IMG/VR virus record: IMGVR_UViG_3300025000_000301 | Span: 1-32,360 of that record | From: a virus | Reading direction: 5' to 3' (one strand) | Length of the DNA: 32,360 bases | Shown here: positions 1,688-20,860 of the stretch, one piece after another | Layout of the letters: each line of letters opens with the position of its first letter | Numbering within the stretch: position 1 is the stretch's first letter | Program-made: the position numbers and the translations under genes | The notes under the pieces: generated by a model | What the model was told of the DNA's origin: nothing | The model's input: only the letters and a program-made list of their open reading frames with translations | Databases searched by the model: none

Positions 1688-1752
1688 GTTAAGTCTAGCT
1701 AACTTAACTGATAAGAGTGGGAATCCTTGTACCCACTCTTCTTTTATTTTTT
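1688..1752 (+). promoter_or_regulatory. two-hairpin leader with terminator, shared with 9649
   Basis: Hairpin 1 pairs GTTAAG (1688-1693) with CTTAAC (1703-1708). The linker TGATAAG follows, then a 9-bp hairpin AAGAGTGGG (1713-1721) with CCCACTCTT (1732-1740), ending in a T-rich tract. It lies 44 bases upstream of a nuclease start. A leader with the same order and the same linker, but different stem sequences, precedes the nuclease gene at 9789. The second hairpin should act as an intrinsic terminator; an attenuator role is inference. Confidence 0.7.
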
Positions 1753-1795
1753 AGAAAAATACAAGGGAAATAAAACACGACAAGGAGTGATAATT

Positions 1796-3355
1796 ATGCC
1801 TAGAAAATTAACAGATGAAGAAATAAAAATATACGTAGAAAATAATAATTATAAATTAATTAATATACATAGAGAAGATAAAATATTCATAGAAGTAGAA
1901 TGTCCTAATTCTCATATTTACAAAACATCATGGAATAATTTTAAAAGTGGTAGCAGATGTATGAAATGTAGAGTAAATAACTCAAGGTTAAGTTTTGATT
2001 ATGTTAAAAATTTTATTGAAGTTGAAAGTAATTCTGATTGTGAATTATTAAGTGATATTTATATAGATAACACAAAATTATTAACAATTAAATGTAAATG
2101 TTCAAATAAATTTTATACAACATTTGGTAATTTTCAACAAGGTAAACGTCAATGTAATGAATGTGGTATTAAAATTAGAAGTGACAAGAAAAGGTTGTCT
2201 TATGAAGAAGTTAAAACTTACATAGAATCAATAGAAGGATATAAATTATTATCAAAAAAATATTATGGTATAGACAAATATTTAAAAATATTATGTCCTT
2301 ATGGACACGAATTTAAGATGGCATTTGGAAATTTTAAATATGGTGGTGAAAGATGTTCAGTATGTGCTGGTAGACAAAAAACAATAGAAAATATTTATAA
2401 TATTATAAATATTGAAGGATATCAACTTTTAACTAAATTAACTAAAACACCTAAAAATATAGATAAATTAGAAATAAAATGTCCAGTAGGACATATTTTT
2501 CATATGTCTTATTCAAAATTTCAACAAGGACATAGATGTGGAGAATGTAATAATCATTTTATGCATAAAGACACTGAATATTTTAAGAATGAAGTTTATC
2601 AATTAGTTGGAGATGAATATTCTGTATTAGGTGAATACGAAAAAGCAACAATTAAAACAAAAATAAAACATAATATATGTGGTTACGAATGGGATATTAC
2701 TCCTGATAATTTTTTATCTAGTGGTCGTAGATGTCCAATGTGCCAACATAGAAGTTGGGCGAAAACTACAGAAGAATTTAAACAAGAAGTCTTTGATTTA
2801 GTTGGAGATGAATACATAGTTTTAGGAGAATATACAAAAAATGATATTGATATTAAAATGTTTCATAATGAATGTAAAAAAGAATTTTATATAAGACCTG
2901 CTAATTTTTTATATGGAGGAAATAGATGCTCGCATTGCAAAAAATCAAAAGGTGAAAATAAAATTAATGAAGTTTTTATTGATAATAATTGGATTGAAAT
3001 ATCGCAAGAAGATTTTGATAATTTAAATGACAAAAATAAATATAATAAAAAATATTTTATACCTCAAAAAAAATTTGAAGGATTAAAAGGCACTGGTGGA
3101 AGAGTGTTGTCGTATGATTTTTATGTACCAAAATTAAATCATCTTATAGAATATGATGGAGAATTTCATTATAAAGTAATTAAAATTAAAGATGAACCAA
3201 TTGAATGTGCAGAAGAAAGATTAAGAAAGCAACAAATACACGATAGGTTAAAAAATGAGTATGCTAAAAATAATAAAATAAATTTATTAAGGATACCTTA
3301 TTGGGATTTTGATAATATAGAAAAAATATTATTAAAAGAATTAGTATTAGATTAA
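1796..3355 (+). CDS. zinc-ribbon nuclease A (homing-type, EDxHD/PD-(D/E)xK end)
   Basis: The start is ATG 1796, eight bases after AAGGAG; an upstream TTG at 1727 has no site and lies inside the terminator. The 519-residue protein has six repeats of about 60 residues, most ending in a CxxC after a GN/NF-x-x-G-x-RC pattern (for example NNFKSGSRCMKC and GNFKYGGERCSVC), read as zinc ribbons for DNA contact. A linker with KSKGENKINE follows, then a nuclease-like end: YDFYVPKLN, IEYDGEFH, QQIHD and LLRIPYWDFD. The E-x-D...H and HD residues fit the EDxHD/Vsr-like fold known from phage homing endonucleases such as I-Bth0305I (family knowledge). The end is paralogous to gene 4743. It follows a hairpin leader, and its insertion probably disturbed the neighbouring tail gene. 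No flanking group I intron core was recognised, so it may be free-standing. Confidence 0.75.
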   Translation: MPRKLTDEEIKIYVENNNYKLINIHREDKIFIEVECPNSHIYKTSWNNFKSGSRCMKCRVNNSRLSFDYVKNFIEVESNSDCELLSDIYIDNTKLLTIKCKCSNKFYTTFGNFQQGKRQCNECGIKIRSDKKRLSYEEVKTYIESIEGYKLLSKKYYGIDKYLKILCPYGHEFKMAFGNFKYGGERCSVCAGRQKTIENIYNIINIEGYQLLTKLTKTPKNIDKLEIKCPVGHIFHMSYSKFQQGHRCGECNNHFMHKDTEYFKNEVYQLVGDEYSVLGEYEKATIKTKIKHNICGYEWDITPDNFLSSGRRCPMCQHRSWAKTTEEFKQEVFDLVGDEYIVLGEYTKNDIDIKMFHNECKKEFYIRPANFLYGGNRCSHCKKSKGENKINEVFIDNNWIEISQEDFDNLNDKNKYNKKYFIPQKKFEGLKGTGGRVLSYDFYVPKLNHLIEYDGEFHYKVIKIKDEPIECAEERLRKQQIHDRLKNEYAKNNKINLLRIPYWDFDNIEKILLKELVLD

Positions 3356-4696: not shown

Positions 4697-4780
4697 ATGA
4701 CTACAGAAACTATGACAATCCATAAGGTAAACAAATATTTTAATGGAGGTAATTATTATAGGGAAGAAATTTACATATGA
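4697..4780 (+). pseudogene. 5' remnant of a small phage gene broken by nuclease B
   Basis: A strong AAAGGAG site is followed by ATG and MTTETMTIHK, which matches the conserved start of a small phage protein family I recall as DUF6847 (usually continuing into an ALxELK helix). After lysine 10 the frame becomes unrelated sequence and stops within nuclease B, 27 residues in all. No downstream half was found in the window. The simplest reading is that nuclease B inserted after codon 10 and the rest was lost. Family recall is from memory. Confidence 0.45.
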
Positions 4781-6146
4781 AGAAGTGAGAAAATATATTG
4801 AAAATTTAGGATATATTTTAATTAGTAAAGAATATATAAATAATAATACTAAATTAATATTAAAAGATTATGAAGATTATTTATATTTTGCTAATTTTAT
4901 TAGTCTTTCAAGTTACAAAATGATTAGACTAAGGTTTCACAAAGCAAATCCTTATACAATAGATAATATTAAATTATGGTTAAAATTAAATAATTTTGAT
5001 TTAGAATTGATTAGTGAAAAATATGAAAATGCTCATAAATATTTATTATTTAAAACTAAAGAAGGTTATTTATGTATAGCAAAATGGAATAGTATACAAC
5101 AAAAGGAAATACCAAGGAAATTTCATAGATCAAATCCATATACAATTCAAAATATTAAATTATGGTGTAAATTAAATAATAAATCTTTTGAATTATTAAG
5201 CGATACATATAAAAATAATATAAAAAAACTTAAATGGAAATGTTTAAAAGATAATTGTAAAGAAGAATTTGAAGCAGATTGGAATAGTATATTTGATGGT
5301 GGTGGTTGTCCTTATTGTCATGGACTACAAGTTGGTTTGTCTAATAACTTAGCAAATATATTTCCTGATATAGCCAATCAATGGCATCCTACTAAGAATG
5401 GTAATTTGACACCTTATGATGTTACTTATAGTAGTAATAAATATGTTTGGTGGCAATGTGATAAAGGACATGAATGGTACATAAGTATAAATACCAGAGT
5501 TAAAAATAATTGCCCTTATTGTTCTGGATTTTATCCTACGAAAGAAAATAATTTATTAATTAATAATCCTGAATTATGTGAAGAATGGGATTATAATAAA
5601 AATAATAAAAGACCAGAAGATTATACTCCTAGAAGTAGTCAATATGCTATGTGGAAATGTAAAGAATGTGGACATGAGTGGAGAGCAAAGATTTCTGATA
5701 GAAATGGAAAAATAAAATCTGGCTGTCCTGAATGTAAAAAATCTAAAGGTGAAAAGAAAATTAGTAATGATTTAATTAGTAAAGGTTTTATTAAAATATC
5801 CCAAGAAGAATTTGATAAATTGGTAGACAAATATAATGAATATTATTTTATACCACAAAAAACATTTAATGGACTATTAGGTTTGGGTGGTAAAAATTTA
5901 TTATGTGATTTTTATTTACCTAGATTAAATTTAATTATTGAATACGATGGTGAATTTCATTTTAGAGTAATAAAAAATTACAAAAAAGAACCTATTAAAT
6001 ATGCAAAAGAAAGATATAAAAAACAACAAATACATGATATACGAAAAAATAAATATGCGATGGATAATAATATAGATTTATTAAGAATACCTTATTGGGA
6101 GTTTAATAATTTAGAAGAGATATTAAATTATTATATTAAAATTTAA
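4743..6146 (+). CDS. zinc-ribbon nuclease B (homing-type, EDxHD/PD-(D/E)xK end)
   Basis: The only canonical upstream start, ATG 4743, overlaps the ribosome site itself (ATGGAGG). Spacing and homology put initiation at ATA 4758: GKKFTYEEVRKYIEN there matches PRKLTDEEIKIYVEN at the start of nuclease A. The N-terminal repeat units keep the NPYTIxNIKLW spacing, but the first two have lost their zinc cysteines. The third (CPYCHG) and two treble-clef units of DUF4379 type are intact: WHPTKNGNLTPYDV with WWQCDKGHEW and CPYC, then WKCKECGHEW and CPEC. The nuclease end (CDFYLPRLN, IEYDGEFH, QQIHD, LLRIPYWEF) is paralogous to nuclease A. It lies inside the broken gene at 4697 and is followed by a structured RNA region. 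Probably a homing endonuclease; target unknown. Confidence 0.75.
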   Translation: MEVIIIGKKFTYEEVRKYIENLGYILISKEYINNNTKLILKDYEDYLYFANFISLSSYKMIRLRFHKANPYTIDNIKLWLKLNNFDLELISEKYENAHKYLLFKTKEGYLCIAKWNSIQQKEIPRKFHRSNPYTIQNIKLWCKLNNKSFELLSDTYKNNIKKLKWKCLKDNCKEEFEADWNSIFDGGGCPYCHGLQVGLSNNLANIFPDIANQWHPTKNGNLTPYDVTYSSNKYVWWQCDKGHEWYISINTRVKNNCPYCSGFYPTKENNLLINNPELCEEWDYNKNNKRPEDYTPRSSQYAMWKCKECGHEWRAKISDRNGKIKSGCPECKKSKGEKKISNDLISKGFIKISQEEFDKLVDKYNEYYFIPQKTFNGLLGLGGKNLLCDFYLPRLNLIIEYDGEFHFRVIKNYKKEPIKYAKERYKKQQIHDIRKNKYAMDNNIDLLRIPYWEFNNLEEILNYYIKI

Positions 6147-6239
6147 ATCTAAAAGTTTAAATCTCAAACTTCAAAGATAAAAGTTTATTTTTTATTAAAG
6201 TTTAAATAGTAAAGATTAAATCTGAAAGTTTTATAAAAT

Positions 6240-6390
6240 CCATGACATAAGGTTTGGGATGATTGTACTTGCCCATAGATTTACCTCATGGCTGGAAAGT
6301 GGTAAATAACTAAAATTTTATTATAATAAAGGTATGGGTCAGATGCCTCATATGTACAGTTAGTAGATTAAAGTATTTAGTTATGTTTAG
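6240..6390 (+). ncRNA. candidate structured RNA downstream of nuclease B
   Basis: This lies in a 366-base gap (6147-6512) with no convincing ORF. CCATGA (6240-6245) pairs with TCATGG (6286-6291), stacked on GGT/ACC (6251-6253 with 6283-6285), and TGGG/CCCA (6255-6258 with 6272-6275) caps it. A second domain is closed by ATAACTAAA (6306-6314) with TTTAGTTAT (6376-6384) and contains a TATGGG/CTCATA hairpin. The G/C content is locally above the surroundings. It does not match any riboswitch, group I core or ribozyme I can recognise. The preceding part (6147-6239) holds only AAGTTTAAAT-like direct repeats. Structure is inferred by eye. Confidence 0.4.
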
Positions 6391-6394
6391 TGTT

Positions 6395-6427
6395 AGAGTA
6401 GTAGAAATTAATCTACTACTCTTTTTT
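6395..6427 (+). terminator. intrinsic terminator before tyrosine recombinase
   Basis: An 11-bp stem (AGAGTAGTAGA with TCTACTACTCT), a six-base loop and TTTTT. It ends the transcript carrying nuclease B and the structured RNA. Confidence 0.9.
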
Positions 6428-7740: not shown

Positions 7741-8004
7741 ATGAGAAGGACAACAAGAAGATCACGAAGAAATATTGGCACATCAAGGCATAAACTTAAA
7801 CCTTTAGTAAAGGGGGTTAGAATATTGACACCATTAGTAATTAAATCAATAGATAATGAATTAGATGATAATGAATTAGATGATAATGTGAAATTAACTT
7901 GTATGAGTAATATTAAAAATAGAGCAAAAGCAGCTAGAAAAGGACAAAGACTTACTGTGCAAGATGCAAAAATGATTTTGGAGGCAGTAAGAAATGAGAG
8001 ATAA
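7741..8004 (+). CDS. antitoxin of a type II toxin-antitoxin pair
   Basis: ATG follows TGGAGTG. The 87-residue protein begins very basic (RRTTRRSRRN), then has a tandem acidic repeat (DNELDDNELDDN) encoded by a 15-bp direct duplication (7852-7881), and ends in a charged helix (LTVQDAKMILEAVRNE). It overlaps the start of the PIN gene by 11 bases, the usual coupling of antitoxin to toxin. Consensus promoter and palindrome upstream suggest autoregulation. The family was not recognised; the antitoxin role rests on position, size and coupling. The basic N-terminus could instead bind DNA or RNA directly. Confidence 0.7.
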   Translation: MRRTTRRSRRNIGTSRHKLKPLVKGVRILTPLVIKSIDNELDDNELDDNVKLTCMSNIKNRAKAARKGQRLTVQDAKMILEAVRNER

Positions 8005-8452
8005 AAAGAAAGTGGTTATAGACACTAATATATTTGTAAAAGGTTGGTATAGTGAAAATAAATATTGTAATATTATTATGGATATGATTGATAATAGAAA
8101 ATTACAATTATTTTTTAGTCAAGATACCATTGGTGAATTAGTATATATTATAAAAGGATTTGCTAGAAGATATTATAAAAATAAATCTGATTCCATAAAT
8201 GATTTAAAAGATATAATGGAATTATTTTATTATGGTACAACAGTTAATACCTCTCACACTAAATCACCTGAGATTAATGATAAATATGATGATATATTTT
8301 TGAAATGTGCAATTGAAGGTGATGCGAATTATTTAATTTCAGATGATTTTAAAAGTGGTATGCATGATATTAATAAATTTGGATTTAAAGTTTTGAATTC
8401 TAAAGATTTTTGTAAGATGATGGAAGAATGTAATGTTAGTAATGTTAATTAA
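7994..8452 (+). CDS. PIN-domain toxin (ribonuclease-like)
   Basis: The 152-residue protein opens with KKVVIDTNIFVKG, the classic PIN start carrying the first acidic metal ligand. SQDTIGELVYII gives the conserved glutamate, DKYDDIFLKCAIEGDA the third acidic group, and YLISDDFKSG the last. These four acidic positions hold Mg2+ or Mn2+ in PIN ribonucleases, which in toxin form cut tRNA, rRNA or mRNA (family knowledge). It resembles the COG1569 type more than classical VapC. The start overlaps the antitoxin end, so the two are translationally coupled. In a phage or plasmid-like prophage it would serve maintenance or exclusion of rivals (inference). Confidence 0.85.
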   Translation: MRDKKKVVIDTNIFVKGWYSENKYCNIIMDMIDNRKLQLFFSQDTIGELVYIIKGFARRYYKNKSDSINDLKDIMELFYYGTTVNTSHTKSPEINDKYDDIFLKCAIEGDANYLISDDFKSGMHDINKFGFKVLNSKDFCKMMEECNVSNVN

Positions 8453-9788: not shown

Positions 9789-10964
9789 ATGGGTAAACTT
9801 TGGTCAGATGAAGAAGTGTTGTTTTTAAAAGAAAATTATATGACTATGACAGATGAAGAAATTGCAGATGTATTGGGTAATAAAACTAAAAAACAAGTGA
9901 AAAGTAAAAGAGGACATTTAAGATTGACAAATAATTTTAGTAATAAACCACCTACCCAAGAATATGTGAATAAGTGTTTTGAAGAAAAAGGATGTATATT
10001 ATTAACTCCTTATATTCAATCACATATAAATTTAAAATATATTTGTAAGTGTGGTACACCAAGAGAAACTACTTTTGGTAAATTTATGAATCAAAAACAT
10101 GGTTGTAGAGTATGTACTGGATTAGAAAAATATACTCAAGAGCAAGCCGAAAAATATTTTGAAGACAATGGATGTAAATTAATAAGTGAATATACTGGAG
10201 CAAATGATGATTTATCTTATATTTGTTCCTGTGGCAATGAAAGTAAAATAACTTTATGGAATTTTAGAAAAGGCAATAGATGCAAACTATGTGGATTAAA
10301 GAAATTAAGCGATCAACTTAAATATGATATTGAGCATGTAAGACAAATTTTTATTGAAGGTAATTGTGTTCCGTTATTTACAGAATATAATAATAGTAAG
10401 GAACCATTGGATTATATATGTGAATGTGGGAATCAGGCAAAAATTGCTTTATCTGATTTTCAAAATGGTAAAAGATGCAATAAATGTAGAGTAGAAAGAA
10501 TTCATAAAACAATGTATGAAAATGGGACACAACAATGTTCTACACAGCAAAGATATATACATAGTTTAATTGGTGGAGAATTAAACTACCCAATTAAAGA
10601 ATCTTCTCTTGATATAGCTTTTATAAATGATAAATTATATGTAGAATACGATGGAGGCGGTCATGATTTAAGTGTTAAATTAGAATCTACGACTCAGGAT
10701 GAGTTTGATAAAAAAGAAAGAAATAGGAGATATGCTTTATATCGTAGTGGTTGGAAAGAAATAAGAATTATTAGTAAAAAAGATTATTTACCAAATGATA
10801 ATATAATATTAGAGATGGTTAATTATGCAAAAGAGTATTTAAATACTGGACATTCGTGGATTAAATTTGATATTGATAATCAATTAGTTAAATGTAGTCA
10901 ATTTAATATAAAATATAATTATAATACATTAAGACGAATTAATAAAGAATTAATTAATTTATAA
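9789..10964 (+). CDS. zinc-ribbon nuclease C (EDxHD homing-type)
   Basis: ATG follows GGAGAGGA. Residues 1-46 (KLWSDEEVLFLKENY ... EEIADVLGNKTKKQVKSKRGHL) form a SANT/Myb-like helix-turn-helix, common as a DNA-reading arm in phage homing enzymes. Three zinc-ribbon repeats follow, with cysteines near 86/88/106/109, 146/148/165/168 and 211/213/230/233. The nuclease region has SLDIAF (acid near 275) and YVEYDGGGHD (E286, D288, H292, D293), a close match to the EDxHD signature of I-Bth0305I-like enzymes. Its C-terminus differs from nucleases A and B, which share each other's tails. It lies between the two small genes and the lipoprotein. No split host gene was identified at this site, so it may be free-standing. 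Confidence 0.75.
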   Translation: MGKLWSDEEVLFLKENYMTMTDEEIADVLGNKTKKQVKSKRGHLRLTNNFSNKPPTQEYVNKCFEEKGCILLTPYIQSHINLKYICKCGTPRETTFGKFMNQKHGCRVCTGLEKYTQEQAEKYFEDNGCKLISEYTGANDDLSYICSCGNESKITLWNFRKGNRCKLCGLKKLSDQLKYDIEHVRQIFIEGNCVPLFTEYNNSKEPLDYICECGNQAKIALSDFQNGKRCNKCRVERIHKTMYENGTQQCSTQQRYIHSLIGGELNYPIKESSLDIAFINDKLYVEYDGGGHDLSVKLESTTQDEFDKKERNRRYALYRSGWKEIRIISKKDYLPNDNIILEMVNYAKEYLNTGHSWIKFDIDNQLVKCSQFNIKYNYNTLRRINKELINL

Positions 10965-19584: not shown

Positions 19585-20752
19585 ATAAAAGCATATAAAA
19601 CTGAAATAAATCCATCTTCCGAACAAATTGTTAAAATACATAAAACTCTTGGTACTTGTAGATTTATTTATAATTTTTATATATCGCATAATAAAGAAAT
19701 ATATGAAAAAGAAAAGAGATTTGTTTCAGGGATGGAATTTTCTAAATGGTTGAATAATGAATTTATACCAAGTAATTTAGAATATAAATGGATTAAAGAA
19801 GTATCAAGCAAAGCAATAAAAAAGGCAATTATGAATGCTGAAATTGCATTTAAAAGATTTTTTAATGGTAAATCTAAGTTTCCTAGATTTAAAAAGAAAA
19901 AGGATCAGAATGTAAAAGCATATTTTCCAAAAAATAATAAAACAGATTGGACCGTTGAAAGACATAGGGTTAAAATACCAACATTTGGTTTTATTAGATT
20001 AAAAGAAAAAGGTTATATTCCTGTTAATACTAAAGTGACAAGTGGCAAGTGGCACTATCTCTTATAAAGCAGGAAGATATTATGTTTCCGTATTAGTTGA
20101 TGAAAATAAACAAATTAATAATTATCAATCTTGTAATGAAGGAATAGGAATAGACCTTGGGTTAAAAGAGTTTGCAATAGTAAGTAATAGTATTGTTAAA
20201 CAGAATATTAATAAAACAATAAAAGTTAAAAAACTAGAAAAAAAACTTAAACGTGAGCAGAGACGTTTATCAAAAAAGTATGAGAATAAAAAGAAAAGAG
20301 GTGGAAAATCTGTCGCTAATTCTGCAAATATAGATAAACAAATATTAAAAATCCAGAAAATTTTTCAAAGGCTTAATAATATTCGGACTGACTATGTAAA
20401 TCAAATAGTTAGTGAATTGGTGAAACCCAAACCAGAATTCATTACTATTGAAGATTTGAATATTAAAGGCATGATAAAGAATAAGCATTTATCAAAAGCA
20501 ATTGCACAACAAAATTTCTATACATTTAGAACGAAACTTCAAAGTAAATGTAAATTATATAATATTGAATTAAGAATTGTTGATAGATTTTATCCTTCAA
20601 GTAAATTATGTTCAGCATGTGGTGGAATTAAGAATGATTTAAAATTATCAGATAGAGTTTATATTTGTAGTGAATGTGGATTAGAAATTGATAGAGATTT
20701 GAATGCTGCAATTAATTTAAAAAATGCTAAAGAATATACAATTGCTTGTTAA
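19585..20752 (+). pseudogene. tnpB: tnpB relic, frameshifted
   Basis: The N-terminal frame reads IKAYKTEINPSSEQI ... CRFIYNFYISHNKEIYEKE, a typical TnpB beginning, but the codon at its start is ATA (19585); loss of one G from ATGATAAAA would explain it. The frame breaks at 20041-20054, where AGTGGCA is present twice in tandem. With one copy removed the protein reads through VTSGTISYKAG, giving about 386 residues, the normal TnpB size. The C-terminal part keeps the RuvC acids (GIGIDLGLKEF, ITIEDLNIKGM, DRDLNAAINL) and a zinc finger (CSACGG ... CSECGL). TnpB is an RNA-guided nuclease; this copy should be inactive unless the duplication reverts. The second fragment (ATG 20042-20752) may still be translated alone. 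Confidence 0.85.
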
Positions 20753-20860
20753 AATTGCATTGTACATATGTACCGATGGTCAGTTGGGAATTTACGATTG
20801 TGGAGTGTTACATCAAACTGTAGTAGGATTCGTTCAAGGCAGGACACGATGAACCAATAA
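20753..20860 (+). ncRNA. degraded guide-RNA (omega/reRNA) scaffold of the TnpB element
   Basis: Sequence after tnpB includes GGATTCGTTCAAGGCAGGAC followed by ACGATGAACCAA, which I recognise from the 3' scaffold of many IS605-type elements, where GTTCA pairs with TGAAC. In intact copies a GAATCC partner and terminal hairpin come next, before the guide; here AATAATTTTCTGG replaces them. The RNA end therefore seems truncated. Recognition is from memory of the family. Confidence 0.5.

Follow-up and report, generated by a model that had tools for sequence, protein, structure and literature searches.

What is the structured RNA that lies between a nuclease gene and a recombinase gene in the DNA of a virus, and to which of its neighbors, if any, does it belong? 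The window analyzed here is the whole 32,360-nucleotide stretch of IMG/VR record IMGVR_UViG_3300025000_000301. Within it, positions 6240 to 6427, between the gene for nuclease B (4743 to 6146) and that for a tyrosine recombinase, had been marked in an initial annotation as an unassigned structured RNA that could be part of the nuclease B element, a small regulatory RNA, or a leader of the recombinase. Having compared the locus with its relatives, we see evenly balanced chances that this is a conserved noncoding RNA that goes together with a small helical protein, referred to here as geneX, inside the tRNA arrays of phages and some bacteria, and that the copy in the window is an orphan.

A covarying core hairpin

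Structure by itself was not evidence, because single-sequence folding energy was no better than that of dinucleotide shuffles: z was -1.5 when the terminator was included and +0.2 when it was left out. The core hairpin domain (6230 to 6306, plus strand) contains three stems, which pair 6240-6244 with 6287-6291, 6250-6253 with 6283-6286, and 6256-6258 with 6272-6274, along with a 5-nt bulge at 6245-6249. Across 55 sequences, these stems had a covariation score of 0.583, compared to 0.156 when shuffled and 0.09 to 0.13 when slid, and 139 double-change cells, compared to 43 in shuffles. Stem 1 was the criterion for choosing sequences, which makes its pairing partly circular; the fair test is therefore provided by stems 2 and 3, which were not used for selection. 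In these two stems, 87.3% of cells were paired (62.7% when shuffled), double-change cells numbered 90 (32.9 when shuffled), and covariation reached 0.647, a value attained by none of 500 shuffles (0.211 when shuffled and 0.10 to 0.16 when slid). For example, the GGG/CCC of the window is AGT/ACT in loci L045 and L046, and A-U pairs within CCATG/CATGG and AGGT/ACCT are C-G in L046. Double changes preserved pairing even among the few relatives compared, and all pairs in the window copy are standard. Thus, the CCATG(A)/(T)CATGG, AGGT/ACCT, and GGG/CCC stems drawn in the initial annotation all covary in homologs, and its reading of an unassigned structured RNA is upheld by compensatory changes. Judged from these alignments, the conserved structured RNA is real, with hairpin pairing kept by covariation.

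At 6292 to 6302, where the conserved GGCTG element has its 3' end, lies a possible 3-bp mini-hairpin, CTG/TGG, that resembles a tRNA D-arm. It pairs in 91.5% of cells, with one-sided changes only, such that covariation gives it no support; mimicry of a D-arm is therefore no more than suggestive. G-U cells outnumbered A-C cells (19 versus 7, p = 0.03), an excess that suggests that the RNA strand is the geneX strand. Model R1 matched the window once, at 6230 to 6306 (84.1 bits, E = 1.6e-15), the window being one of its training rows. It also recovered held-out copies where they were expected in cyanobacterial, Herelleviridae, Bacillus, Brevibacillus (Jenst), Clostridioides (phiCDIF1296T), and Lactococcus 949 sequences, with no further match at E <= 1 in 247 kb.

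The edges of the RNA were drawn differently at first. The three stems do fall inside 6240 to 6427, but the conserved part begins near 6137, and 6363 to 6427 lie outside the conserved RNA. Downstream of the core is a lineage-specific extension (6307 to 6362, plus strand), in which TAACT/AGTTA (6307-6311/6358-6362) closes a hairpin, AGGTAT/ATGCCT (6330-6335/6343-6348); it is common only to L007/L013 and L015, and from 6328 onward also to L006. A longer stem, ATAACTAAA/TTTAGTTAT, had been proposed and was rejected as specific to the window, since its 3' arm has no counterpart in any relative and homology ends at 6362 to 6364; relatives keep the shorter TAACT/AGTTA instead. The window-specific 3' end (6363 to 6427, plus strand) has no homology to relatives and carries an intrinsic-terminator-like hairpin at 6395 to 6422, in agreement with the strong terminator noted earlier (2 sites in a terminator scan, compared to 0.3 in shuffles). 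In line with the lack of an ORF that had also been stated, no ORF of at least 60 amino acids covers the core. A micro-ORF, MAGKW (6288 to 6305), was discarded, as L015 lacks its start codon.

The RNA likewise remained without a known family, as first reported. When Rfam 15 was searched at gathering thresholds, neither a riboswitch, a group I or II intron, nor any other family matched over the RNA, and matches there at lax thresholds were attributable to chance. The window contained no tRNA or tmRNA gene (ARAGORN, RF00005) and no match to Y RNA-like (YrlA, RF02553). RAGATH-27 (RF03100) had no match in the window at its gathering threshold of 76.1 bits and none around the RNA up to E = 10. Similarly, the skipping-rope covariance model (RF02924) had no match in the window, and elsewhere matched only at L020 3634-3711. 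We considered and set aside a group I intron core and an insertion in an anticodon loop: in L015, the genes on either side of the RNA are complete, and none of the intron families matches.

Nuclease B in the place of geneX

Scans for the recombinase and for short strings of the RNA led to the close relatives L007/L013, L015, and L006/L014. With blastn, neither the window RNA (against phages) nor the L007 RNA (against phages and plasmids) gave a convincing homolog, similarity being too low. In L013 and L015, an HU-like gene is followed by geneX, which is 213 amino acids long, and then by the RNA. The window retains codons 1 to 10 of geneX (MTTETMTIHK; 4697 to 4726, plus strand), with 9 of 10 residues identical to L013 geneX by tblastn and an upstream flank that is homologous to L007 and L013. 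From codon 11, the place of geneX, of the RAGATH-27-like 5' domain, and of the start of the heptad tract is occupied by nuclease B, a plus-strand gene of 467 amino acids with DUF4379 treble-clef fingers (Pfam E = 3e-42) and an EYDGEFH motif. At the same place, L013 has an intact geneX and a RAGATH-27-like domain (53 bits, below gathering). Homology between the window and its relatives resumes at 6137, where that with L007 begins, and breaks at 6362 to 6364, with no counterpart to the terminator beyond. Because nuclease B took the place of geneX and the 5' domain, and unrelated sequence that of the 3' end, the window copy is an orphan. On the level of homology and gene order, these comparisons show that the window RNA is the orphaned 3' part of a conserved RNA linked to geneX.

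The arrangement is shared with a second contig, L012, which is 99.7% identical over 12.7 kb. In L006, both geneX and the core hairpin are lost, while the later part of the RNA and the recombinase are kept. The window copy itself has the three covarying stems plus the AATCC...GGCTG that mark the element. It lacks a geneX immediately upstream, and no other geneX occurs in the 32-kb record, which may be a fragment. The RNA is thus not strictly dependent on geneX in cis, since it persists in this record without it. Its intact stems argue against long decay; the orphan could be decaying, or it might be supplied in trans with the protein of another element.

Two of the roles first offered for the RNA fare poorly in light of these comparisons. 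Relatives have the RNA without nuclease B, 3' of geneX, which places nuclease B outside the RNA element as judged from gene order. Were the RNA a leader or regulator of the recombinase, this would account for the position of the window RNA and its terminator directly 5' of that gene. However, the hairpin precedes other genes in relatives (in distant phages and cyanobacteria, these are tRNA genes, a macrodomain-like gene, or others), and in L006 the recombinase is present although the core hairpin is missing. We consider such a leader to be highly improbable, with room only for lineage-specific regulation. A trans-acting small RNA, or an RNA that works with geneX, fits best.

The window encodes three large stand-alone nuclease-like proteins (1727 to 3355, 4743 to 6146, and 9789 to 10964), which are possible homing endonucleases shaping the region; two match DUF4379 treble-clef fingers, and an EYDGEFHY/F-type motif is common to the C-termini of the first two. 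Related nucleases precede the recombinase in L006 and L015. In addition, an HNH_repeat nuclease ORF (L013 3969-5312, L007 1660-3000) extends from the truncated 3' end of the RNA across a deletion-like junction.

geneX, a linked RNA, and a 7-nt repeat

Relatives of geneX were found by tblastn in 706 phage records, including that of T5, where the gene is T5.085 (PHROG 1491, annotated "tail fiber"); elsewhere it is often annotated as "tail fiber" or hypothetical. The predicted structure is mostly helical (pLDDT 84.5), with no known RNA-binding fold. A geneX profile matched PDB 3KDQ, also the top fold match, but weakly (E = 4e-4). This is a remote likeness to the DIP1984 family (NF038048; PF20935/DUF6847), although every family match of geneX fell below curated cutoffs, as with the 13.6 bits scored by L130 against the 70 bits of NF038048.

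Scans with geneX yielded 76 viral and 26 genome loci, including Calothrix, Symploca, Prochloron, Lachnospiraceae, and an Acholeplasmataceae metagenome-assembled genome. The geneX-RNA pair occurs in T5, Vequintavirinae, Herelleviridae, Lactococcus 949, Clostridium-type phages, and cyanobacterial chromosomes. A noncoding gap of the same anatomy lies 3' of geneX in T5, PVP-SE1, EspYZU15, Av-05, BM15, phiPsa315, VPG01, Lactococcus 949, Mydo, MadMel, Jenst, and phiCDIF1296T, and the RNA lies approximately 190 to 610 nt (mostly 250 to 400) downstream of geneX. In T5, the gap after T5.085 spans 43,141 to 43,505 on the minus strand of its record. When required to pair exactly, the hairpin AA(T/C/A)-CCnnG-...-CnnGG-C(T/A)G followed geneX at 81 of the 90 unique loci; shuffled sequences averaged 0.2, and the reverse strand gave 1. 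It was not seen at geneX loci L064, L100, and L136, the last of which is too short to judge. The hairpin at L119 is a chance match, the real element being further downstream or lost, and pattern-search matches at L016, L017, L023 to L027, L030, and L031 were rejected as chance matches in coding sequence.

Most loci were found through geneX, and RNAs without it would consequently be undersampled. R1 matched exactly once in each of six whole genomes, at the geneX locus. When 291 genomes of one class were searched, the same three contained both geneX and the RNA, which starts 308 to 350 nt after the geneX match; one of the three is the seed and two are new.

Between geneX and the core lies a second conserved feature. 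The heptad tract (6137 to 6229 in the window, plus strand) is approximately 95 nt long, with the family consensus TYAAAGN. In the 97 nt 5' of the hairpin at 84 loci, autocorrelation of AAA was strong at lags 7, 14, and 21 (z = 31, 24, and 19, respectively), and lag 7 was the best self-match among lags 4 to 11 in 71 of the 84. It is also the best in the window, where the tract is directly 5' of the core hairpin (z = 4.3). The repeat unit changes while its period does not: a TTGAGTA-like heptad occurs in L099, L102, L104, L105, and L109, which form one clade of the geneX tree, and TAATCNT occurs in L115, which has the most divergent geneX. Clade-specific heptads with a constant period would fit a protein that reads the repeats, though shared descent alone could suffice.

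Repeats beside a hairpin also raise the possibility of a DNA element, that is, iterons and an inverted repeat acting as a replication origin, packaging site, or recombination site. Direct repeats next to an inverted repeat do resemble an oriT or iteron origin, and homing-type nucleases surround the region in several relatives. Yet, a period of 7 bp would put the repeats on different faces of the helix, and in cellular genomes the element is single copy and tied to geneX. Moreover, the imperfect three-part hairpin with its fixed bulge, its excess of G-U over A-C, and the conserved GGCTG are better suited to RNA. We find a DNA element to be quite unlikely.

The 5' domain of the RNA, which the window has lost, connects the element to a pair of orphan motifs in Rfam. 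The first, RAGATH-27, directly follows geneX and precedes the heptads in L018, L022, L047, L051, L053, L054, L065, and L120, but its 86-nt model covers the 5' domain only and leaves the heptads and hairpin outside. Skipping-rope, which Rfam lists as a candidate RNA and which contains a pseudoknot (PMC7779021), takes the same place after geneX in Brevibacillus phage Jenst (L020); its 80 nt likewise cover only the 5' domain, no part of which is in the window. Across the loci, the order of the element is geneX, often RAGATH-27 or skipping-rope, approximately 95 nt of heptads, and the three-part covarying hairpin ending in GGCTG. Its 5' domain is already in Rfam; the RNA-plus-protein element as a whole was described in no open-license paper that we found and may be new. 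A tRNA or apparent half-tRNA is present between the RAGATH-27 domain and the heptads in L121 (2139-2440) and L065 (2248-2348), and a YrlA-like match (44.5 bits, compared to a gathering threshold of 69) falls between geneX and the heptads of Erwinia phage MadMel (L041 2753-2816).

tRNA arrays and candidate functions

Most geneX-RNA loci lie in or beside tRNA arrays; no tRNAs were found in the sequence examined at geneX loci L123, L126, and L096. On Calothrix chromosomes, geneX and the RNA are found among up to 13 tRNA genes and are followed by a macrodomain-like gene, which we take to resemble the TIGR02452 family on our own reading of the sequence rather than a profile search. TIGR02452/PARG-like macrodomain genes follow the RNA in the cyanobacterial arrays of L130 (2403-3248) and L128 (2400-3254), and RtcB is near the geneX-RNA locus of Dulem virus 39. 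The setting is the same as that of the Anabaena trn operon, an array that is induced by translation stress, raises survival under such stress, and is under a repressor that it shares with both RtcB and a protein of the TIGR02452 family (PMC10272220). It differs in that the passages of that paper that we consulted do not mention an associated structured RNA.

Given this setting, the RNA could be a cis element of the tRNA-array transcript, such as a processing, stability, or antitermination leader, with geneX merely the gene upstream. A tRNA is often directly 3' of the hairpin (tRNA-Gln in L118, tRNA-Asp in L042, and tRNA-Thr in L032), and tRNAs or half-tRNAs can occur between geneX and the heptads. 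However, the RNA is conserved where no tRNA follows it in the sequence examined (T5, Lactococcus 949, phiPsa315, VPG01, L013, and L015), and it tracks geneX rather than any single tRNA. A cis leader therefore seems rather unlikely to us. Alternatively, geneX and the RNA could be a toxin and its RNA antitoxin, similar to type III systems, with the repeats as antitoxin. A small protein gene does adjoin a repeat-containing RNA on phages and mobile arrays, and an orphan antitoxin could persist, like the window RNA, in the absence of geneX. In type III systems, however, the antitoxin repeats precede the toxin gene and are longer, at about 35 nt, and geneX matched no toxin family in Pfam or NCBIfam. 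We regard this reading as very unlikely.

Linkage, co-occurrence, and clade-specific heptads instead suggest a partnership in which the geneX protein would bind the RNA, with one subunit per heptad, and the hairpin would act as an end-cap or nucleation site for the resulting particle. The idea resembles TRAP, whose RNA sites are regularly spaced triplets with a period of about 5 nt, one per subunit of an oligomer. The likeness is one of mechanism only: the element has a period of 7 nt, another sequence, and a separate covarying hairpin, and no sequence relation was found between TRAP and geneX proteins. More speculatively, the particle might serve the phage tRNA array by protecting or maturing its tRNAs, or it might be a decoy for host defenses that cut or modify tRNA. 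Taken together, this would be a new ribonucleoprotein of phages and cyanobacterial tRNA arrays, made of oligomeric geneX at 7 nt per subunit with a hairpin cap, that works with phage tRNAs against the shutdown of translation by the host, a proposal that we offer as tentative and somewhat doubtful in its full form. A protein with relatives in hundreds of phage records seems to come with a structured RNA of its own, in which a 7-nt repeat is strictly kept; two orphan Rfam motifs are now joined to a larger element, and a candidate protein partner is available in the classical laboratory phage T5. The pair is set in tRNA arrays, and what these do in the conflict between phage and host is under active study.

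Elsewhere in the window, a small gene and a PIN-domain gene (7994 to 8452, PF13470) form a toxin-antitoxin-like pair at 7741 to 8452. A TnpB-like gene with OrfB_IS605 and TNB domains (19732 to 20752) is split into overlapping ORFs (19732 to 20067 and 20042 to 20752). The only Rfam match at gathering in the whole window, a RAGATH-18 RNA at 20797 to 20860 (59.9 bits), begins 45 nt after this gene and may have some connection to a guide RNA of TnpB.
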